Positions 697 through 18,600 of a stretch of 20,808 nucleotides of DNA are shown here, piece by piece (positions within the stretch are counted from its first letter, which is position 1; the number at the start of each line of letters is the position of its first letter). The stretch covers positions 1 through 20,808 of the forward strand of contig CAJMEO010000001.1 in NCBI GenBank assembly GCA_905212505.1, read 5' to 3'. A program made the position numbers and the translations under genes. The stretch is from an uncultured Christensenella sp. Lineage in GTDB: Bacteria > Bacillota > Clostridia > Christensenellales > UBA1242. Below the pieces are notes generated by a model that was not told the DNA's origin, did not search any database, and was given only the letters and a program-made list of their open reading frames with translations.

Positions 697-3600
697 TTAA
701 TTGTTAGATTGTTGATACAAATTTCCATTTAAATCGGTTGGAATTATCTCAATATTGTTAAAAGTGTAGGTTGTTCCACCTTTTGTGAACTCATAGTTAA
801 CATGATAAGCGTTGTTCAAGTCAACCACAGTGTCTAGTGGCTCAACAAAAGACATTCCATCTTTTAAGTAACCACTAACCTCGCTTAAACTTTTACCTTC
901 AATTAATGGAGTTTTAACTTTCAGTCCAGTATATAAAATTTTAAGTTTGAAGCCACAACCACCATCAAGCACAGTTTCAACACTGCCATATTCAACCGAT
1001 GCGATAAATTTCTCGCCATTGATTGTAATTTCTTTATTTGTGCTATATGTGCTACCTATACCTTCAAAACCATCTTCAGCAACCTTAACCAAATCAAAGG
1101 TTACAAAATCTACCAATTTGCCATTTGAAACATACATATCTTGCCCATCTGCTAAATAGCAAATCATTGAATCGTTAGATTTTAAAGTCACTTTCAATCT
1201 AACATCAATCATGCCGTCAAACGAAACATCAGGGATAACTTTATAGGTGTCAGTGTCATTAACTTTAACATTGTGTTCCAAATATGCCCTTGCTTTTGTG
1301 CTCTTTGTCGATCCTGTTACAAAAAGTATGTTTTTGCAATATAACTCATTATTTATTATACTATCTGTATGGTAAGAACTATTGAAATTTGTTGCCCAAA
1401 GTGCGGCAGTAATATCGTTAACCCAAACGGACACAAGTCCACTGGTGTCCAAAATTACATATGCAAGAACTGTGGACGCCAATTCATTTTTGACGGCGAT
1501 AGGAAATACAAAGGAACCATTGCTGGTATAGAAACAGCCATTCTCAAGTGCCTCGTTCGTGGTCAAGGAATTCGTGATGTTAGTTCTGTGCTGAGCGTAA
1601 GTATCGGCAAGGTCTTGAGCGTAGTTCATAAATTCCGTTTTAGAACTAAACCCAAACAAGTTTGCTATGACTGTTTGGAAATCGATGAGTTCTGGACTTA
1701 TGTCGCCTCCAAAAGCCATCGTGTATGGATGATTTACGCCTATCACCGCGCTTCTGGTGAGATCGTTGTTCACGTTCTTGGTAAACGAAACAAGCGAACT
1801 GTTATAAAGCTCTATCGCCTTATTATAAAATTGGGTGTAACTATTGAGAGCATTTCCACTGACGGTTGGGATGTATTCCGTACCGTTTGTAGATATTTCA
1901 AAATTCCCCATAAATGTGGCAAACAATTCACTAAGGAAATTGAAGGCAACAATTGTAGACTCAGATGCCGACTGCGATGTGTGTTTAGAAAGACTTGTAA
2001 TTTCTCCAAAATCCCCAGCAATCATGCCAAACGGATTGCAATCGTCATAACTTACATTAACTCTGGTTCCGTTGTACCCTGAAATATATCTTTCATACAA
2101 TTCGGAACACCTCCCTACTTTAATTGTAATTTCATTAGTATTATTATTATTATGATTAGTTGCAACAGCACGTTTTGCAGTGTCGTCATAAGTAAGGCTT
2201 GCATTATCTATATCGTTGAAGAAGAATTCACAAAGCCCGCTAACAATATTTTTAGTCCCACCATTTTCTTCATAAGTTCCAACAATAATTTCACTAAATT
2301 GTGCAGTGACTGTTTTGTCTTCGTCGTTTAAAACATCAACAGCTTTTTCTTTTTTGCCAATTATTATTTCTTTTTCTTCTCCACATAAAGCATAACCTGT
2401 TGCAAAACAATTTGTGATTTGTGGAATATGTGCCGTGTGAAGTTCAACATATTTCAATATATTATTGTGTTCCGTAGATTTTTTAACTGAATATACGCAA
2501 GGAGAAATTCTTCCAGTTAATGAGCCCTTTGTCACTTTAATTTCACTTGTATTGCTTTTATCGCCATCAGGAGTTTCCAAAGAGTTTGAAATGCTACAGC
2601 CCAAAACTGAGCAACCATCAAAGCCAAGTTCAGAATATCCTGAAACAAGACCAAAACATCCAGACAAGTTTTCAAAAACATTTAATTGACAGTTTGCAAT
2701 TTGAATGTTTGTTATCTTGTCGGTGGATTCTTCGGTGGATTCTGTTGAACCAGCAAAATATTCATTTGAACCAGAAATTAATCCAATACTTGATGATAGG
2801 TTAATTGTTGAATTTATGCCTTTTGTGTTAAATATGTTTTCACCAGTCTTTTGTTGATCTCTTTCATCAACGCCCTCAATATTTGTCAAATCATAGCAAG
2901 TGTTTGTTGCTTTTGCGTTGATGTTTATTGTTCTTCCTGACAAATTAATATTTTCAATTTTTCCATGATTTAAGCCACAAATAACGCCCATTTCAAGATT
3001 AATTGTTGTTTCACGAGGTTTTCCTTTATAAGGGTTAGGATCTATTTCCTGAGTTATGCTTTCATCTGTTTGTACCTTAAGTTTATCAGAATTAATATTT
3101 ATTTGAGTAATAGAATATGAACCATCATCCTTTTGTACGAGTTCTCCGTCTTTATCTCTTAAATAAACGCTTGTTGTTCCGTAACTGTGGTCTAAGGTTA
3201 TATTTGAAGTGATAGTAAGGTCATTATCAATTTCGCATCCAGATATTTCCCCAAAATTTAATGCACTGAACAAACCAAAGGTTAGGTTAGAGCCCAAATT
3301 TACATTATCTGAACTTGTTGTTGTTGCTTCTAATGTGCTTGGATAGCCACCTTCTGGTTTATCTATAAGGTTTTCAGCAAAATCAACTTCCTGATTAATA
3401 GAAATATTTTCTTGAGTTATTAATTTTATATTTTCTATTTTTCCACAATTTGCCAAAACACCAAAAGAGAATAATGAAACACCTCCATCGTTTACCACTT
3501 GGAAATAAGTTGCGTCAATAGTAAGGTTTTTAACGGTTGCCGTTTCTCCAAGTTGAAGGAATAAATACTTGCAAGAATTTCCTAATTTTATAGTTTTATT

Positions 3601-6600
3601 ATTCCCTTCAATTGTTCCCATAAAGGCTTTACGTGCACCACTTTTTGTTACTTCTGAAATGTAATCTACATTATCATTTTCGCTTTTAACAAAATCTGGA
3701 ACTTTATAAGCAGGATAATAAACAGCATTTTCGTTTGTGCTTAAAATTGTTATCAACTCGCTTTCAGTCACAAGCCTATCATCACAAACATACATAATTT
3801 GATTTTCGTTATAATCTTCATAGTCATAAATATCAAGAGAGTCAATATTGATGCTTGAAACATCTAAGTCTTTGTTTATTATAATAGTTTTGCCATAGAA
3901 ATTTATGCCTTGATGGGTTGAGCCATTATAGCGATAAGTTGTCATAGCATCTGCAACAACTTCAAGTTGACGAGCGTATTGAACAACAAAAGTATCATCA
4001 TCATTACCTAAAGCCGCGTATGCATTGTCTAAGGTTAAATTTTTGTCATTTTCAGATTTATCTTCGCCAAATTTGTCTGGATATTCTTTTATATACTCTT
4101 CTTCCCAAACTTTTCTGAAACGTTCTTTAAAGTTTTCATATGCAACTTTGGTTAGATTTCTGCTTACTGTTTCAAATCTTCCATATTCATTTGCATCACC
4201 TTCCTTTTTCACAAGAATATTCTTATAACCTTTTTCAGTATCAGTATAATCATTTTCAAAGTTTTCATTAGAGCCATAAACAATTTTAAAGCCGTTGTCG
4301 GTTATTGTAAGGCCTGACGAAACAGTCAAAAGCGAATCCCAAACTTTGCCTGCCATGCTGATATTATCCATCAAAACAATGTTTTTAACAATGTTGTGAC
4401 TTAATGCATAAGCAAGTTCGTTAACGTTATATACATAATATTTTTCGTTTTCTTGTTTTGGTTCAACTTGTAAGTTGCTTAACAAAACAAATTTCTTGTT
4501 AAATGCAATTTTTGCTGGAATGTACTTTTGTTTTGAAGTGTCAACAGCATTTTCCGAAGTATATGGAGAAAGTATTTCACTTTTTTTATCAAGCAATTCT
4601 AATGAGTCTGAATCCGGAATTAGAATTGAATCCGAATCTGTCAAGCCAATAGTATTCACTTCATGCTTAAAGCTGTTTACTCTTTGAGCTTCTTTTGAAA
4701 TTTCAATTGTTAATGAAATGATAGTTAAAATAACGCTTGGTTTAACTGCCCCTTTAAGAAGTTTTCCAAATGTTTTGGCAATTTTCAATTTGCTTGCCGC
4801 CTTAGCAGCGCCATAAATCTTTTTAAGTTTTGGAATGGCATTTTTCAAATATTTTAAGGCTTCAACTGTTTTTTTGCCATATTTTTTAATTACTTTTGCT
4901 GCGATAAGACTATCAACAAGAAGTGTTGTGCTAACTCTTCCAGCAATCATTCCCACTTGCTCTATAGATACGCCTGTTTCTTCAGATTTAAATAAATTTT
5001 CCGTTTTAACATACAAAGTGGAATCTAATTTTGGAGCATAACAACTTGAAACAGTGCCTTCATTAGACCCAACAATTGCACCAACATATTGTTGTGCTTC
5101 AGAATAGAAAGTTATGCCAACAATATCTGCCCCAACTTCATCTCCAGCGCCAACACCCCTCATTCCGTTTGTTTTTGCGGTCGAATTTATTGAAGAATAG
5201 AAATATGAATTTTCAATAATTCCGGTTACGGTGTTAATTCCTGAAATTCCGCCAATATGAGTGTAAATTCCATTACCATTGAAATTTGCCAACATAAATT
5301 CAACATCAATAACAACTGAAGATTCTATTGCTGGTTGGTCAAAATTGATAACTTCACAAGAAGTGATATGGCCACTATTTTCAGCTGACATAACACCTGA
5401 ATTAAGATCAATATTTTCTGAAATATTTTGAGTTATTGAAACATCAATATCAATAAATGACAATCCTTGTTCTGTTGAACTTACCAAAACATCTTGAATT
5501 GTTCCGCTGTTTTGCCCAGCAACAACAGAAACATATTTTTTGCAAGAACCGCCAAAATCTGTGATCTTAATGCTTGGATTTTCAAAATTAATGTTTTGAA
5601 TTGTTCCGCTGTTTTGACTGACAAAGCCCCAAACTGTTGCATATTTAGGGTCTTCCTCTGTGCCCAAGTTTAATTCAATTCCTTTAATTGTTAAATTTGA
5701 AATTGTGTGATATCCCCCGTCAAATGTGCGACTAAATTCAGTTGATGGAGTGATGTATGTGTATCCAGTCATGTCAATATCGTCAACAAGTTTGACATCC
5801 TTTGTTGTTTTGTCTGCATACATTGACCAATACCACAATTCAAATGATGTTGAAATTAGATATGCACTAGAATCAGTTTTCAACGTAAATGCGTCTAGAT
5901 CAATCAATTTTATTCTTGGTTGTGTGAAATTGTTATCTGTTGACACAACAAAATCTGAAAGTTTTTCAATAACAACATTTCCACTTTCATCTGTTTTGCC
6001 AGCAAAATATTCCCACCATTGCTCTTTATCGGAATTAGAAGTTGTTTCCAAAATTTCATCAAGACCAAAACATTTATTGTTGCTTGCATTTGGTGAAATG
6101 TCTGGAATACGATCTGGTGCAAGTGTTGTGTAGCCCCCACCAAGAGTATAACAATAAGATGCCGTGCCACTTGTTATGGTGTAGGCTTGTGACGAACTCA
6201 TCACACCACCAAGTTGATATGAATAGTAAACACTTGTTGCATTCCCTGCACTTATTGCTGCTGCAACAACTGAATTTGATTTTGAAGGAGAAATTGACAT
6301 AATTGTTGTTTTGTTAATACAATACAAAATCGTGCCATTATTTGCAATTCCGCCAACAAAGTTTATAGCAGAAGAGCCTGAATAATTGTTCACACCTTTA
6401 ATTTTGCTTTCGTTTTTACAGAACGAAATAATGTCGTTAGAATTTTCTCCGTTAACAATGCCGGCAGTGTATGTGCCAATATTGTTTTTGTGTGCATTTT
6501 TTGCATAAATTAGGCCAAAGTTTGAGCACTTAAATAAATATCCCTTTTCAGTTTTTCCACTAATTCCTGCAGTGTAGATATTGTTAAAACTGCTTGATGT

Positions 6601-9600
6601 ACTTGCGGTTGTAACAGTTGAATTATTTTCACAATTGTTGAATAGAGTTTGTTTTGAAAGACCAACAATTCCGCCAACATAAAGGGTTTTTGCATCAATG
6701 TCACTTTCAAACACTGCTTCAACTCTGCCTTTTAATGTTTTAACATTCGTTAGTATTGAAACCTCAGCCACATCAACAATCGACCCAATGCAATAATCAG
6801 ATGAAGTTTTTGAACTTGAAGTTTCACTTGTTCTGTTAAAATATATTTCATCCAAGGTTATATTATATAAATTTGTGTTTTCAATTTTGTTTGCAAGTGC
6901 TGCACTGTGAAGTGTTTGACTTGCTTTAATTTTTAAGTTTGAAATTGTGCAGTTTGTTAGAGTGTCAAAAATGTTTGAAGATATTGTTGTGGTTGTTTCA
7001 TTAACAAACAAAATTTTTGTGTTTGTTAAGTTTTTCTTTGAAACGCTTTCACCTTGTTCGTTTTGAACGGTTTCGTATGCAAAAGTAAATTCACCCGTAA
7101 CATCAACAATATAAATCACATCGTCTTCAAATGCCCAAGAGTTTTCGGTCACAATTTTAAAATTAGGTTTTTCAAAAATGTTTGTTGCTGTTTTTGTGTT
7201 GTCAGCAAAATCATTCCAAGTGATGTTAGCCCCTATTAAATCTGTTAAATCTGTTAAAACTGATTCAGAATTGTTTGCATCCTCAACCAAACTTAATGAA
7301 GAATTATATTTGTTCCCAGTATTATTAGTTATATTATAAACTTTTCCCGCTATCGCCTTAATATTATAGATCAAATCATCATCATCCGCCGAAGCGTAAT
7401 ATCCAAGATAAGCCCCTTTATATGAAACAACCCCAAAGACTGAGTTATTTGTCAATGCTCCGCCATCAACAAAGCCAACAATTCCCCCAATATTTGCTTC
7501 TTTTGCACTTGAACAACTTACATCACCAAAGTTATAGTTATTGTTTAATGTCATATTAGAAACTTTTCCTGCAAAGCCACCAACATTAACACTATAGGCT
7601 TGTTTTTCTTTTGAAGTTACAATTTTTGCAACCAAATAATCTAGATTAACATTTAATTTGTTAATGCTATTTTCAATTTTGCAATTGCTAGTGTTTGTGC
7701 CATTAGCAAAGCCAACAAAAGCCCCAGCATATATATTTTTTGCATTTGAATAGTTTGTAACATTCATAATTTCGTTGCTAGAAATCATTTGGCCATCAAC
7801 ATAGCAACTTGTTATGCTAACATTTCCATTATTTTTTGCAACAAGTGCCCCTGCATAAACATCTTTAACGGCATTATATTTGTCGTTCTCATCTGAAACA
7901 TCTGATATTAAAACTTCAAATTTCGCACTTATTAAAGCTAAATTTGCAATAACAATATTTTTATTAGCTTCATCACAACTGAACAACCCAACAACACTTT
8001 CAGATTTTTCTTTATCAATTTCAGAAGTCATTAATAAATTGTAAATTACAAAATCACTTCCGTCGAAATTTAATGATTTTTTAATCTTTAAATTTTTTGC
8101 TTTCAATGCAATTTCGTCTGTTGCGTTTTGAGTTTTTCTGTTTACTGCCCCCATAAATGAAGCGATTTGTTTGATTTTAATGTCAGTTATTGTTTCTTCT
8201 TCATTCAATGTGTTAACAACAAAATTTAAAGAACTTAAGTTGTTGATTAAATATTTTTCTTCATTTGTTTTTGTTGTTAGCAAGTTTTTAGCAAAATCAT
8301 TCGTTTTGTAAGTTGCAATGCTTGGATAAGCATAACCAAACAAAATTTCAGGAAGGTTTTCAGACCACATATTTGATGTTGCATTGTTTTTTCTGATGCT
8401 GAAATCTTTTTCTTTGCTAAATATTTCATCAAAACTATAATAATAAACACCATTTGGAATTGAATAGTCATAATAATTTCCGTTTGCCGCAATATCAATA
8501 AAACAATTTGCAAATTTGCTTGTTGTTTTGTCATAGCCAAATGATTCATAATATTTGTCTGACAAAGGAAGTGTTATTGCTGAAACGCAGTTAGCCATTG
8601 TGTCTAAATTAGATTTAACAAAACCAAAAATTTTTCTAATATCTTCATTATATTTTGTTCCAACATTATAATTTTTTATTTCACCTGCTTCAATAAATTC
8701 AATATTACCAGTTGAAATTGAGTTGTAAATTGCTCCGCTATTGTTATTAACAAATCCAGAAACATAAGCGTCATCTTGTGTTAAACCTTTTGCAACAAGA
8801 TGCGACAAACTGGTAACAACATTAATCACGCCTGCATTATTCAAAACAACAGGACTAGCTGCCACATCGTTTGCATAAATGTTGCCCTTAACAGCACAAT
8901 TGTAAATCACACCATAGTTATCCTCAGCCACTATTGTTTGAACGTTGTTTACAAACACATTTCCATTAAAACTTGATGTGTTGTCACTTGAAAGTTCAAA
9001 AGTTAAACCCGAAACTATTGCATTTTTGCTGATTGATTCTGCAAAAGTTTTCTTAACAACAAATTTATGACCATCGCCAATGATATCCCCTTTAATCTCT
9101 GAAATTGTTTCTGTAAAATTTAAGTCGTTCTTAATTAAATAATATTTATTATCTTCAAAACTTATTAAACTTGACACAGAAATTGGATTATAAACACTTC
9201 CTTCATGGAAATATATATCTTCGCCTTCAATTGAATCAATATCAGGATCTTTAAGTTCATTATTTTCAAGTTTTTGTTTGTAAAATTCATTTTTGTTAAT
9301 GATTTCTTTTACAATTCCTATATACCCATTAACAAAATCACTAAATTTCACAGCACCTGCAAAAGTATTATCGCTGTTGTGAGCACCAAATTCAGTGTTT
9401 CTTGAAGGAGTCAAAGACACGTCTTCAATAAAATAGCAATTTTCATAATTTATTGGTGTTGTGCTGGTGTTAGAATTATAGTCATTTCCAATAAGCCCAC
9501 CAATATAATCTAACGACTGACAATAATATTTTATCATGCCAACAAATAACGAATTGTTAACATTGCTTTCTCCGCCACAATAGTTATAACCCAAAAGTCC

Positions 9601-12600
9601 GCCAACATTTACATCTTTTTTGCCTTTATCTTTAACAGAAATACTAGAAGTGCAAATAATGTTTGAAATTACGCTTCCTTTTTCGTTTAGCCCGTTGCTT
9701 CCAACAACCCCACCAACACGAGATATGCCAGATGATGATATTGCCTCCAATTCAACACTTGCTGAATTCATAATCTGCAGAATATTTCCGCCTTCAGAAT
9801 ATCCACAAACTCCACCAATAAAGTTTGAAGAGTTACTTGTTTGTGTTTTATCATTTGCCAAAACTTGACAAGTTTTTGACAAAACAGCATTTTGAATTGT
9901 TGAATTTTTGCTTTCACCAATCAAACCGCCAACATATAAAGATTTTAGATTTGAATAGTTGTTTTCAACACTAACAATAGCATCGCTTAAATTTACGCTA
10001 TTTAGTTTTAATCCATTTGAAGAACCTGCAATGCCACCAATATAAATATTGCTTTCTGTTCCGCCTATTCCATCAGCATTATGTGTTATCTCCAAAGCTT
10101 TTTTAGTGCAATTGCTTACAACAGAATTTTGAATTTGTCCAAACAATCCCCCAACATAACTATATTGATTTTCTTTGCCTTGAAGATTATAAATTTTGTT
10201 ACTACCATTAAGGTTAACATTATAACATTTAATGTCTTTTGCAAGGCCAATTAAGCCACCAAAATATGTATCAAAGTTTTTAGCCTCTTCACGTTTCATG
10301 TTTAAATTTTCAAATGTAACGCCTGGCAACCCTTCATTTAAAGAACCTATTGTTGTGCCGTTAGCTTTTCCAATTAAACCACCAACATAATTTAAGTTAG
10401 TTGTAATAATACTTTTATTATCTATTCCATTATTATCACTAAACTTAATATTAATGTTTGTTATAACAGAGTTGTTATCAACAGCACTCAAAACTCCTAA
10501 ACCATATTTAGCTTCAACATTTTGATTAATTATGTTAATTCCACGTTTTGCTCCATTTCCCCAATTTTCATCTATGTCTTCTTCAGTTGGGTCAGTGTTA
10601 ACAAATTCTTCACCCCTCTTAGCAGGATCAGTATAATTAGATCCAACAACAAAAGTAATATTACTTATTTCTGCATTATTAGTTGAGGCAAAGAAGCCAA
10701 CATTCCCTGAAACATTTTTTGATTGATTGTTGATTGTTAAATTATAAATAATATAATATTCGCTTTGACCTTCTTTACGGTTTTGCCTTTTTGCACTATA
10801 AAATTTGCCTTCAAAATTTCCAAGTGGGTCCCAAGGATTTTCTAAATAAATATCTTTTTCAAGAACACATACGCCTTTTGAAAGCATATTCCTTAAATCA
10901 TCTTCACTAGTAATCGATCTAACCGAACCTTTTTTGTTATAAGTCAATCTATAGAAAGTGTCAAGGTTTACCGTGCGTGTAAAACATGAACTTTCAGCAT
11001 AACCATTAAAAGTTCCACTAACTTGACTTATAAAGTCATTATAAGATTTGCTATTATCAATTCTTCCTACACTAATATCAATCCCATTAAATATTGTTGA
11101 AACATTGCTTAAACATTCTCCAATAATTTTGTTTTCAGAAATGTTTTTTGCTTGATTATATCCAACAAAACTAGCAAGACCAAATTTTGATGGTGTTTGT
11201 GTGTTCCTTAATAAAGACACAAAATTAGTAATTGAACTTTTATCATTAAATTCAATAATTGTTCCAATAAAGCCCGCATAACCTTTTTGAGTTGTGATTA
11301 GGCCAGCATTATTAACTTCTTCTTGGCAAGCAAGATATGAATTTGCATATACAAATTCAATTCTAGAATTAATAAAAGCACCAACACTAGAACCAACAAA
11401 TCGACTGCTTTTAGCATCGATATTTGCCTTGTTATATGAATAATTTAAAATCCCTTCATCCAAAATTCCAACCAAACCACCAACAAAGTATGCTTTGTTG
11501 TTTGAATTTGAGAATAAATAACTTGTTAAATATTCGTTTTGAGAAGTTTTGTCAATAACTCTTTGACGATTAAGTTCAGTTTCTACTATTGCATAAGAAA
11601 TTAGTCCTTTATTAACACCCGCAATTCCACCAACAGCATAATTTGCTATCAAGTTTTGAGTGTTAGATTCATTCAAGACAAATCTTGCGTCATAAATTGA
11701 GCTTCCTTCCAAAACAAGCCCAAACATTCCACCAACAATGTCACCTGAAATTTGAATATCTCCGCCAACTTTAGTAAATTGAATGCTTGAATTCTCAAAT
11801 GAAACTTCTTGCTCTCTTTCAATAACAGCATTAACATAGTAAGATTGACTTGAAACATTTTGAACAAAGTTTTCTATTCTTGTTTTATAGATATCAACAA
11901 CACCAAACAATCCGCCAACGATGTTAACGTTATAGTTTTCGTCATCAATAATAGCATCATAAGGATATTTGTATATTTTCTTTGTGCTTTGATATGAATA
12001 ATCATAATTGGACGATTTATTGTCAAATGTGGCTTTAACGCCAAGATTGCTAGAAACTCCTTTAACAAAACTGTTTCCACTAATTCTTCCAGCAACACCA
12101 CCAACAATGTTATTACCAGTAACAACAACGTCCCTGTTGCTTATAATGCTTATATTATAAAGTTTAGAGTTGATAACTTCACCACTAAGCGTTCCAACAG
12201 ATTTAGTTATTGTTGCAGAAATGCCATCAATTTCAAAATTGATGTTTTTAACAACCGTACAATTATCTTCATCTAACTTATCATTTTTAATATTTCCATT
12301 ATTATCATAAGCAAGTTCAACACCAATTTGTTTGAACAAACCAAAGGAAGTGTATTTTAATTTATCATTTTTTGCAGCAATTGTAATATTTTCAAGAAGC
12401 ATATTGTTTGCATTTAGGCTTCCTGCAAAAATAATATCTTGAAGTTTTTGCACTTGTGTTGTTGTGTTTGTTTCACCATTGTTTATATCAATAATTTTTG
12501 ATAAATCTAAGTCTTTAACAATGCTTATATGTTTATAATTTATTTTTGTTTTATTTATTTTTCCATTGAAATAATATGAATATAAATTTTCTTCGCTTGT

Positions 12601-15600
12601 TAAAGCATTAAAGAATTGTTCTGTTGTGCTAACAATTATAGGATTATTGATACTACCTATACTATTATTAATATATACATACTCATATTTTGTTTGATTT
12701 GATTGAGAATTCTCATTAATAAGTTTTCTCTCACACACTATATCTTGATCTGCATCAACAAGTCTTGGCATCATACCTTTATTAAATGACCAAACAGAAC
12801 TTGATGTTCCATCACTAATAAATCCTTCAAAGTAACTTGCATCATCAAGGCTCATAATGCCATTTGCCGGCTCGCCATATTCACCTTCTTCACCATTCAC
12901 ATCTTGCCCTTCAAGCCAATAGTAACAATATTTAACGCCATCATTATTTAAAGTTAAATTTTCTTCATTATTTCCGGTGAAATATCTAAAACTTTGAGTT
13001 GATTTTGATGCACTTGATGCACTTATAGATGTTTCAACATAGCCATTTGTGTTATCATAAACAAAACCACTTGAACGTTTATTTGTGTTAATTAAAATAT
13101 TTGAATAACAATCTTTAATATTCCCTGAGTTTGTTGTTACAAATCCTCCAACATAACCATTTGCAAAAATGCCTCCTTCTGTGATTGAATTTCCAAGCAC
13201 TTTTAAAGGTTCTTTGCTGTAACCTTGAACATAACTTGATGTAACAGAAGCATCTTGAGCATTCACTGCAACAAATCCTGCAGTGTTTTTGCTTAATGAA
13301 TTATTATATATTGTTGTGTTGACAACATAACTTGATGCAATTTTTTTGTTGTTAATTGCAACAAATCCCGCCATTTGTGCTTTTGCTGTTATTGTAAATT
13401 GATTGCTAGAGTTTTTATCATTCATGCTTGAATAAGTGATATAGCCATCGTTAACTCCAACAAAACCTCCAACATTGGCTTCTATGCTTTCATTAACATT
13501 CACAAAAATTTCAATATTTTCATAAGCGTTTTTATTGTTTATTAATTTATAGTTTGTGTTAACAACATGGCAATTTGTGATGACGCCTTTGTTTGTTCCA
13601 CAAAGCACGCCGAAATTTAGGCTTGCCAATGTTTGAGCATTAATATTAAGCCCATAATTATACTCATTATTTGCATAATAAAGTGTTGGCAAAACATTAA
13701 CTTTTAAGTTTTTAACAATTGAATTTTCAGAAATCTCATTAAACAAACCAACACTTGTTTGACTTGTGCTTGAAATTGAAAATCCTTGAATGTTAATTGT
13801 TTTGTTATTTCCATCAAAACTTGAAATTTTTGCATTAATTCCACCAAAATCTGTTGGAAGAGTTAAGTCATTTAACAAAATATAGTTTCCATTATCAGAC
13901 ATCTTAACAAACTCATCAACAGTTTTAATAGGAACAGGATTATCTAAACTAGATTCAGTTTTCACATCCAAAACAAATTCAGATGAAACTTCGTTGTTAG
14001 AACCTTGTTTTAATGCAACAAGCCCATCATCGTAACCAATATTAACTTTTATTAACATTCGGTTTTCAGAAATGTTTTTTCCTGTAACAATATAATAACC
14101 GTCACTATTGATTGTAACAACAAAATTAGAATATGAAGTGTTTTCTTTAATGTTATTATAAACAAGATTTCCATTGCTGTTTTGTGTGATTAAATTCCAA
14201 GAATAATTTGATTTTGAAATCAATTCAGTTAATGTTTGAATTTTTAAATTTATGTTAGAAAACTCTAACTCCCTTTCACTTAAATTTGATACTGAAATAT
14301 TTTGTTTTAGACCATTTTCATCAATATATTCAAATTTGTCAACACTGCTTCCGTTTGCATCAAAATAAATATAATTTTTGCAACCATTAACTTCAAGTTC
14401 GGCTTTAAGCATTGTTGAAGAGCCAAGATAGTTTTTCAAAATCCCGTCTTCACAATCGCTCACTTTAACACCATTAACAAAATAGTCCACAACGCAAACT
14501 TCAATTGTTGCACCTTCACTAATAGTATCTTTTCCATTAACCTTCGCTGAATAGGTTGGTGTGATTTTTAGTTTTGTGTTTCTTTTGTTTAAAATATCAG
14601 AATAAATAACCAATTGATTGTTTTCGTTGATCTTATAACCAAATATTGTTTTGCTTTCTGGTTCAATCACATATCTAAAGCCATTTATATCCTCAAATAA
14701 AACATTATTATAATAAATGTCTATCAATTCATTTCCGTTAACACTAAATTTAAAGTTGCCCGTGCTTACGCCTTCAAAGTCTTCGTCCATATTTATGGTG
14801 TTAATATTAAGAGCAATTTCTCCGCCCTTTGGAACAAAATTTTCATCGCTTCCGTTTGGATTGGTTAGTATTATTGTTGTTAAAGCTTTTGCTTTTAAAT
14901 TTAATGTTACAGGCTGATATTTATGTCCTAGACCATAATAGCAAGTAACTGTTATTGTGAAAATCGTGTCATCCAAAATGTCGGTTGAAAGCAATGTTCC
15001 AACATAAATATTTCCGCCATTTTCTTGCAACTCTTGTTTATTAACATTTAACTTTATTCCTTGAGGCAATGTGTCTTTTGCCGAAGTTACAGTAAGTTTA
15101 TTTTCTTCATTTAATTTTAGTTGTGAAAAATTAATTCTATTTCCATTCACAATAGAACTTGTAACATCAATGTCTGTAATGTTTGCAAAACTTGGATATA
15201 AGTTTATGCTTAAAACCCCAAGATTGCCTTTGGTTATTTCATAACTTGGAATTGTTTCCTTGTTAATGACATAATCATAAGCATTATAATATGTAATTGT
15301 GCTTGAAAAATGATTCAATTCAACGTTTTGAAGCTTTGAACTTTTTAACAACACATTAATTTTTGCTGAAACATTTTGATTTAGTTCGTCCCCGATTTTG
15401 TGACGAATAACAAATTCAAATGCTCTATCCTCAGAAAGACTAACATCTTTTGCTGTAACTTTAACATTAAATTTAGTTAGGCTTCCTTCAATTGTTTTCT
15501 TTGAAGCATCAATTTCAAAATAATTAACAAGATATTCTCCATATCTTTCAAAAATTAAGTTTTGATTAAGGATATCTCCAGTTGAATCAACATAAACTTC

Positions 15601-18600
15601 AAATTCAATTGTTTCGTTTTCAGGAATTGCAAAATAATTAACCGAAGTTGTTATTATGCTTGCACTGTTCACAACCTTAATTGTTATACTTTTTTTGTTT
15701 TCAAAATCAATAAAATTATAACTTTCATCACCAAATCTAACAATGCTATATGGCATAACATCAATAGTTGTTTGTGAAATTTGATCTAGTCCAGTAAATA
15801 TTGTTCTTGCATCCAAATGATAAATTTCATTATTTATTGCTTCTTTATTATTTATAAGCAATTTTGAACTAACATCATCATTCAAAACAAAATATAATCC
15901 ATTACTTTCTGTTTTTGGTGAAAATTTTGTATCAATTTGTTTTGTTGAACCTTTTGATATAGTAATTGATTTTTCAATATCAAAAGTATCAACTCTTTCT
16001 ATTACACTCAAATAAACATAAGTTTTAACACTTGTGTTATGTTTTGCATAAATTTCAATTGTTGCATTTCCAATTCCAACAATCTTAAGTTTTCCATTAA
16101 CAATGCTAACAACATTATTATTTAAGCTTACAAGCTCAAAGTCATTAACCGCATCACTAGGTGTTGAAGAAATGTTAAAAATTTCGTCAACGTCATAAAC
16201 AAGATTGTTTTTAAAGTAAATTACTCCCTTATTCAATTCGTCATCTTTAATCACAACAACATTTTCGCCATTTCCATAAACATATTTATTATTGCTGTTT
16301 TCAACGTCATTCTTAACTTGAAGCTTAGCATCAATGCTTGTTGCAACAATTGTCATTAGTTTTTTAAAGCCATCTGTTTCGTTATAAACCAAGTATGGTT
16401 TTCCACCATTTTTTGTGCTAACATAAGCAAAATATTTGTTATCATTAAACACCAACACGCCATTTTCATCTTTCACTGTTATAACATTAACATAATTCGT
16501 TTTATCATAGAAGTATTTGCTGTCTGTTGAAAGATGTTCTTGAACACAAGTTGTTGAATAAACTTTATTAAATTTTAAGTTCCCCGCCAAAATATTTCCA
16601 ACAAAACTTTGAACACCTGTTACATAGCTATAAGCATTATCAACAGAAAGATTAGCATTCATGTTTCCAATAAATGCTCCACCTTTAAAATCATTTGCTT
16701 GAATATTGCCTTTTGCTTTCAAAACAACATCACTAAACACAACTGAAAGTTTTGTTGAAGTGGCATTTGTTCCAATAAGCCCGCCAACAACCAAGCCTTC
16801 AATATTGCATGCACCACTATAAAGTTTTGAAAAATTTTGGACATAAGCATATTTAATATTGGTTTGGTTAGCCCCTTCAAAATTAACACTTCCAAACAAG
16901 CCACCAACAGTGTGTCCAGACAAACTTGACGAATTTTCCAAAATATTTCCAACAAATTCAACAAAAATCAAAGTAAAATCAAATTTATTTGCATCTTCAA
17001 TTTCACTTTTAACATAGGCACTAATTCCGCCAACAACAGCATCTGAATTTCTTGCCATGATATTTCCGCTAAAATATAGATTTTTATATTCCTTGTTCTT
17101 GCTTTCAATTTTTCCAGCAATTCCACCAACATATTTAGCATTACTTGTTATATTTGCATCAATTTTTATTCCGTTTAAAACGCCCTGATTTTTCGCAACC
17201 ACACCCGCAACACAACTTTCACTATGAACATTGCTCAAATCAACAATCCTTAGTTTAGCCATGCCATGATTGATGTTTTTTAAGAAATTAAAGTTTGAAA
17301 TTATACTTCCATTTTCCATGTTTTGAGCAACAAAACCACCAAAGTTGACTGAAGCCTTTTCTAAAATAACATTAGTATAATCAGCATCAATTGAACTTAT
17401 AAAACAATTTTCAATTAAACCATTATTTTGTGCAAACAACAACCCTATGTTAACAACGTTAACTAAGTTATTATTAATAATTTGCAAGTTGTTTAAAATC
17501 AAATTTAAGTTTTTAATTTCTCCATTATTTTCTTTTGCAATTATTCCAAAGTCATCTGAAACTTCAACTTTGTTTTGATTATAAATTATGTTTAAGTTGG
17601 TTAGTTTTGCAGTTAATGCGTCATTATTATTAATGTTAAACACACTTCCTGTTCCACTAAAAATTAAACTATAAACTGAATTTTCGCTAAAACTTGAATT
17701 TGAATATTTTGCATAACTAAATTTACCATCAATTCCGGCAACTTGTTTTGTGATTGATTGATTAAATTCAACATCTTTGTTTAATGTGTAATATCTATTT
17801 TCATTTAAGTTTTGAACATTTTCAAGAATGTATGGAAAACTCATGCTTCCATCAGCAACAACAACATAAACATCACTAAAAATTGAATATTCTCCACCTG
17901 TTGTATATTTGCTTCCTTTTGCATAAACCCTAACTTTAGTAACCCCTGCCGAAGTAAATGACACAACCCCTGTATCTTTATCAACAGTTACGCTTGTCCC
18001 TTCAATAATTTTAAATTCTAGGCTCTTATTTGTTGCTTCATTATAATTTTCACCAATAACTTCGGCTTCAATTTGCGCAAACCCAACTCCTTGATTGCTT
18101 AAATAAACAAAGCCTCCATCATTTTTGATTTCAACCTTTTCAGATTTCACCTGCTCAGTTAAAACAACTTTTAGTGTTAGCAAATAAGCCTCATCACTTC
18201 CGGCCAAATCATAAATTTCAATTGTTAAACCAAAAATAAACTTTCCATCAATAAATTTATTTTGATGATTTTTGTAAACATGGAAATAAATTTTGTTGAA
18301 TAATTCGCCATCGCTTAATTCTTGATGAAAATCATTTTGATTTGCCACATTATGTTCTGAATCATAAGTCGCTTCTTTAAGTTCACTTGGGAAATTAAAC
18401 TTAACCTTAATATTTCCTTTATTTCCTTCGGTCACGCCCTCAATTTTAACGAGTTTGTTCAAGTCAAGCATGTTAAGTTTATTTTCAAGACTATCAAGGT
18501 CAAGGCCTTCACCATCAACAATTGTAACTTCAGAAGAAATTTCGCCGTTTGTGAAAGTAACCCCAGTTAATGGCACATAGGTGTTAATATTAAACTCTAT

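Follow-up and report, generated by a model that had tools for sequence, protein, structure and literature searches.

How can a gene for a protein of 6681 residues be read straight through a transposase gene that lies on its opposite strand? The question is raised by the window studied here, that is, the whole 20,808-nucleotide stretch of contig CAJMEO010000001.1 (assembly GCA_905212505.1) from an uncultured Christensenella sp., and the answer probably lies in a mobile element of the insertion sequence (IS) family IS1 with coding sequence on each strand. At 1369..2082 the plus strand carries an open reading frame (ORF) of 237 amino acids, running from ATG to TGA with no internal stop. The minus strand is open across the same positions and belongs to ORF 697..20742(-), which encodes the giant protein. 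An initial annotation, made from the letters alone, had reported an IS1 transposase with zinc ribbon and DDE residues on the plus strand and an open minus strand continuous with the giant frame, and both observations stand; that residues 6221-6458 of the giant protein are read antisense to the transposase and are followed by 223 more follows directly from the ORF coordinates. The giant host ORF is likewise real, while its description as an adhesin is a guess, since no Pfam family was matched in the scanned parts of the protein.

The plus-strand protein, searched against IS1 families as had been proposed, exceeds the IS1 thresholds of both databases searched: PF03400 (DDE_Tnp_IS1; Pfam) is matched with E=2e-23 and a score of 83.5 against a cut-off of 24.1, the NCBIfam IS1 equivalog NF033558 with 162.1 bits (cut-off 100) and the IS1/IS1595 zinc domain NF050000 with 49.4 bits (cut-off 28). 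In an alignment with 120 IS1 proteins the catalytic residues D106, D165 and Glu192 are retained (the last in column 190, two window residues being dropped there). Of the 87 columns conserved to at least 95% among the 120 proteins, 76 are kept in the window transposase and 63 in its relative L001, described below. The openness of the strand opposite exceeds chance: under the codon usage of three ORFs neighboring the L001 locus a mean of 8.9 antisense stops is expected, with none in 1 of 20,000 draws, and under the giant gene's own codon usage the mean is 10.1, with none in 0 of 20,000.

The extent of the element can be read from a second copy. Among 40 relatives found in the genome collection, the only close one (78%) is L001, from a Clostridia metagenome-assembled genome (MAG) of roe deer rumen. 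The window and L001 share a block of ~805 bp at 87% nucleotide identity, beyond which BLASTN of window positions 1001-2500 detected no similarity between them; the L001 copy is likewise placed antisense within a giant ORF, surrounded by different sequence, and away from the unit the two giant proteins share 25% similarity over ~1040 columns. In L001 the transposase frame no longer has a start codon and is broken by an internal stop; the antisense frame is open. A perfect 8-bp direct repeat bounds the L001 block and thus defines a unit of 805 bp; target-site duplications of the IS1 family are ~8-9 bp long. Because unit and duplication together (805+8 = 813 = 3x271) amount to 271 whole codons, the reading frame survives the insertion. 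The homologous unit of the window, with its ends inferred from L001, is also 805 bp (1310..2114) and thus larger than the transposase ORF. Its left end (1310..1333, plus strand), the complement of which codes for the C-terminal end of the antisense product, and its right end (2091..2114, minus strand), which codes for the N-terminal xCSELYE, resemble by eye the terminal repeats of IS1 relatives, a family marked by terminal inverted repeats of the GGTG type. In seven of eight testable relatives the two ends match each other at 18-23 of 24 positions, L012 being the exception.

The antisense product of the unit (1310..2114, minus strand) is an insertion domain of ~265 amino acids, xxCSELYERY ... 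YCKNILFVTG, occupying residues ~6211-6477 of the giant protein. By structure modeling it is predicted to fold confidently (predicted local distance difference test score, pLDDT, 92.6; predicted template modeling score, pTM, 0.92) as one mixed alpha/beta domain. The initial annotation had seen here a helix-prone, soluble-looking stretch; the predicted domain is not purely helical. The predicted fold has no clear match among solved structures, and searches of Pfam and NCBIfam matched no family to the domain. In the copies aligned it is a single domain of ~265 residues, the conserved core of which is retained across different hosts.

A search of other genomes for the antisense domain, also proposed at the outset, found it in frame in many different proteins. 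It was detected in 3 of 198 relatives of the L001 genome and 14 of 248 relatives of genome G182, at the level of the order in 18 of 396 and in 16 of 297 sampled genomes, in 2 of 277 from the family of the L001 genome, and in 1 of 274 from the class (L001's own), in sets that overlap and draw the same genomes repeatedly and with a few matches weak and partial. No internal stop occurs in any listed genome match. Among 5.8 billion proteins, a 400-residue query yielded 21 domain-bearing proteins out of 635 candidates, and 22 giant domain-bearers were recognized among 958 candidates, including those of the window and of L001; one of the giants, P0154, comes from a Christensenellales MAG. The hosts comprise giant proteins, a GH16 glycanase (PF00722 was matched in 8 of the 21 proteins from the 400-residue query), a MORN-repeat protein (P0129), several proteins whose starts look lipoprotein-like by eye, and DnaE, the alpha subunit of DNA polymerase III. 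The flanks of 35 host proteins (L068 left aside) fall into 18 BLASTP clusters, more contexts being found outside this set, with the window and L001 united in one through repeats away from the insertion site. In the sense direction the best identity to the window transposase was 54% among the matches listed (120 of 504), compared with up to 97% for antisense-coded proteins; gene callers may prefer the antisense frame and so hide sense copies. We also noted diverged domain copies in tandem within long proteins (contig C73 of G351, with L068, L074 and L076; C4 and C1 of G360; C1 of G429), two of the three G351 copies being ~25-28% identical to the window domain, and these arrays give the impression of a domain turned into an ordinary repeat unit.

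Comparison of sites with and without the domain reveals clean insertion. The domains of the window, P0123, P0145 and P0146 are 96-98% identical; P0123 matches the window at 95% over 271 residues with no significant similarity in the flanks, the domains of P0145 and P0146, two other giants, are 97% identical to that of the window, and the flanks of all four are unrelated save for 30% between P0145 and P0146. A DnaE search gave a match in 39 of 39 genomes, including G316 (the match in G129 is weak). In G316 the only DnaE match (L065:559-3705) has ~267 additional residues, inserted in frame close to residue 303. In G351 and G358 the DnaE segments on either side, residues 2-302/303 and 570 onward, align to uninterrupted DNA without the insert. 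Four conserved cysteines of the domain are kept in this DnaE copy too, where they may bind metal rather than form disulfides. GH16 orthologs of 292-296 amino acids lacking the insert occur in three genomes. Several genomes of the order retain the GH16 gene together with its insert, and in two of these copies (L042:889-2544, L043:874-2532) the gene next to it looks similar by eye; this insertion is old and vertically inherited.

Several of the insertions also carry what we read as the protein trace of the 8-bp target duplication. In 4 of 23 contexts (L001, P0147, P0148 and P0124) the two residues before xxCS are the same as the two after VTGP, compared with a permutation mean of 0.3 (p = 0.00015); at other shifts only L065 and P0123 show a dipeptide match, each displaced by one residue. 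The test excluded P0127 and P0143 (one flank lacking), P0150 (C-terminal end lost), the array in G351 and further instances of an insertion already counted.

We observed opposite patterns of substitution in ordinary IS1 elements and in copies residing in host genes. Antisense stops are absent from all 17 domain copies and number 1-11 in each of 14 ordinary IS1 relatives (those of 39 IS1 loci with a single match spanning 200 residues or more). Which frame is in use cannot be told from stops alone, because 6 of the 16 other copies lack sense stops and such stops occur in half (7) of the 14 ordinary relatives, figures that weigh against our reading; the argument for constraint is carried by codon positions, identity and profile scores. 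In the 12 ordinary IS1 pairs listed, differences concentrate at sense third positions, and the same holds for the window against the ten ordinary IS1s listed (identity 47-51% in the sense and 19-24% in the antisense protein). Between the window and other host-gene copies the differences concentrate instead at the third positions of domain codons, equivalent to first positions in the sense frame. The strongest case is L063, with 68% identity for the domain and 32% for the sense protein (p = 8e-11), and 15 of 15 such comparisons, which are not independent, seven being GH16 copies of one insertion, lean to constraint on the domain frame (p from 8e-11 to 0.02). The score against the IS1 profile falls from 297 bits for the window and 256 for L001 to 58, 33, 24 and 22. 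These patterns indicate that in host genes the minus-strand frame is constrained while similarity to the transposase fades.

The window copy itself appears to stand where the two regimes meet. Its 94 differences from L001 fall 35, 19 and 40 on the three codon positions, about equal at the outer positions and lowest at the middle. Random placement of as many differences leaves 175 +/- 4 residues alike in either protein; 187 are alike in the sense protein (p = 0.005) and 193 in the antisense protein, a value reached in 0 of 3000 placements. The domain tree, built without some GH16 rows and close repeats, is star-like. Tip lengths are 0.01-0.03 for the window, P0123, P0145 and P0146; L001, P0147 and P0148, all with dipeptide duplications, form a second young group; most other insertions have tips of 0.16-1.2 arising from short, mostly weakly supported inner branches; and the GH16 copies form one supported clade (100/99). 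A star of this kind would be expected from an active lineage that changes slowly while its landed copies change faster.

We therefore suggest, with good confidence, that an element of the IS1 lineage codes on both strands and that its antisense product is a foldable insert which host proteins tolerate. The plus strand would encode the transposase, and the opposed codons of the minus strand together with both ends would encode the compact domain. On landing, the element would duplicate 8 bp and, given the right orientation and phase, add 271 codons without a stop, so that the host protein would be made with an extra self-folding domain in a loop, would still work, and the insertion would be tolerated. 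Thereafter only the antisense frame, now part of a host protein, would be constrained and the transposase would decay, while a slowly evolving lineage constrained on both strands would seed new copies. This account draws on the two frames, the family assignment, the repeated in-frame insertion, the several duplications, the insert-free sites and the opposite constraint regimes, all documented at the level of sequence, and on a predicted fold; that folding-based tolerance explains the success of the element, and that the element is active at present, we infer. With somewhat less assurance, though still on balance, we favor the wider proposal of a transposon selected on both strands, for a transposase and for an insert-tolerant, self-folding domain whose termini are coded by the transposon ends, the element being thus able to enter genes, even essential ones, and leave them intact in function.

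Several further observations speak against this proposal. The window transposase lacks 11 of the 87 residues at least 95% conserved in the 120 IS1 proteins, and among the matches listed (120 of 504) there is no free-standing or sense-oriented copy close to it. Its left and right ends match at 13 of 24 positions (15 of 24 in L001), neither value above shuffles, and by eye no 8-bp duplication is seen in the DNA flanking the window unit. The copies most alike (the window, P0145, P0146 and P0123) have no in-register dipeptide duplication, that of P0123 being one residue out. The domain copies were found with the antisense product, which favors open frames; the test for dual constraint comprises one pair, the window and L001, with few polarized changes; and the inner branches of the domain tree are mostly weak, 4 of 32 being starred. 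As to the duplications, it is the youngest copies (the window, P0145, P0146 and P0123) that lack them and the slightly older P0147, P0148 and L001 in which they are present throughout; copies may have recombined with one another, or the mode of insertion may differ.

Alternatively, hosts may have selected the domain for a useful surface function, such as ligand or glycan binding, with the transposon as its vehicle. Many hosts do look secreted or surface-exposed, judging by signal-like N-termini seen by eye and by their giant size, and the GH16 clade has retained the domain for long; yet it is also found in the cytoplasmic enzyme DnaE and in the MORN-repeat protein, and the hosts have no evident function in common. 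We regard this explanation as a real but doubtful contender. It is unlikely, too, that the domain is a neutral passenger, IS1 elements landing everywhere and only those open in antisense surviving within genes, so that the domain would have no property for which the element itself is selected. Only survivors are visible, they were sought with the antisense product and would look alike, and in-frame antisense is one of six possible arrangements. Against this, openness looks lineage-wide (17 of 17 copies versus 0 of 14 ordinary relatives), ~9-10 stops would be expected in the window copy, and for the product, whose core is conserved across different hosts, a high-confidence fold is predicted. 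The initial annotation had offered two readings of the locus. One, a neutral insertion saved by its frame, is unlikely as a pure accident, because all 14 ordinary IS1 relatives have antisense stops and the antisense frame is constrained in host genes. The other, the birth of a domain from antisense transposon DNA, finds support, with the amendment that the event is neither local nor new to this gene.

A single ancient IS1 insertion, domesticated and then spread as a domain by recombination and gene duplication, would make the window transposase frame a relic. The single, vertically inherited GH16 clade, the tandem diverged copies in the giants of G351, G360 and G429 and the window-like copies without duplications agree with such a history. 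It is made improbable by the perfect 8-bp duplication of L001 and the dipeptide duplications in 4 of 23 contexts, by the DnaE insertion with its contiguous homologs, and by the sharp common boundaries of copies that are 95-97% identical within different flanks; moreover, a relic should not retain a stop-free frame of 237 codons with 297 bits to the IS1 profile. The initial annotation had itself named as contrary evidence homologs with an ordinary domain and no transposase opposite. Such copies exist in part, the strand opposite being unrecognizable as IS1 in 11 of 17 (no match to the profile at E<=10), and we do not take them as a refutation because an IS1 origin is still indicated by the graded decay and by the IS1-like ends. 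An artifact of assembly or annotation is scarcely credible: many relatives are metagenome-derived, but the same unit recurs across independent records and assemblies, and each of the genome matches listed has an open frame.

Among known systems, the proposed dual-coding element is close to the IS1 family itself, whose equivalog and PF03400 cut-offs its transposase passes with DDE residues and zinc domain kept, and which it resembles in its size of ~0.8 kb, in the 8-bp duplication of L001 and, by eye, in its ends; it differs in an antisense frame that is open and conserved as a domain, where the 14 ordinary relatives have 1-11 stops. Inteins, like the window-type domain, sit in frame within unrelated proteins, a DNA polymerase among them (DnaE in the case of the window-type domain); they are recognized by the motifs of a splicing domain, and no Pfam or NCBIfam family matched the window-type domain. 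Rickettsia palindromic elements (RPEs) are mobile DNAs of ~150 bp found in frame in unrelated genes, encoding a short conserved peptide that host proteins are presumed to tolerate (PMC10969869). The window-type unit resembles them in its in-frame insertion in several unrelated genes (18 flank clusters, 35 hosts) and departs from them in its 805 bp, with an IS1 transposase opposite a predicted folded domain of ~265 residues. RPEs are not known to carry a transposase. PARCEL elements are described as coding elements of membrane and surface proteins of diverse microbes with 25-residue tandem repeats and dyad symmetry (PMC2996958); the window-type unit is similarly a coding element spread among proteins, and differs in being a single ~265-residue domain of an IS coding on both strands, with no 25-residue tandem repeats. 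The antisense overlapping genes laoB, ano and asa of E. coli also yield proteins from opposite strands (PMC5810103, PMC5960689, PMC6294744), as does the window unit; they are single-locus genes, whereas the window-type pair includes a transposase and recurs at many sites. A literature search, which had most subscription journals and preprints outside its scope, found no account of a dual-strand IS with an antisense insert domain.

Of the remaining features of the window, a promoter-like TTGCAA-17-TATACT lies just upstream of the transposase ATG (1334..1362, plus strand), recognized by consensus only, with 4 promoter-like sites in the region versus 3.4 expected in shuffles. Positions 1-303 of the plus strand hold the end of an ORF whose similarity to alpha/beta hydrolases is weak and sub-threshold (PF12146 with E=3e-4), and an ORF of 135 amino acids at 5726-6133(+), antisense to the giant gene and without a Pfam match, is probably due to chance.

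The proposed element, a mobile DNA with both strands coding and an antisense product that seems to render its insertions into genes harmless, offers a natural and testable case of two proteins specified by complementary strands of the same codons, and of a transposon spreading as a protein domain. It would account for a family of insert domains that lack annotation in giant proteins, in glycanases and in one DNA polymerase of Clostridia-type bacteria, and it illustrates how gene calling can hide such elements, with identities of 54% at best in sense (among the matches listed) and 97% for antisense-coded proteins. The domain possibly represents a new protein fold derived from antisense DNA. If the proposal is true, selfish DNA would have found a new way to live within coding sequence, and the strand complementary to an unrelated gene would have given rise to a new fold.
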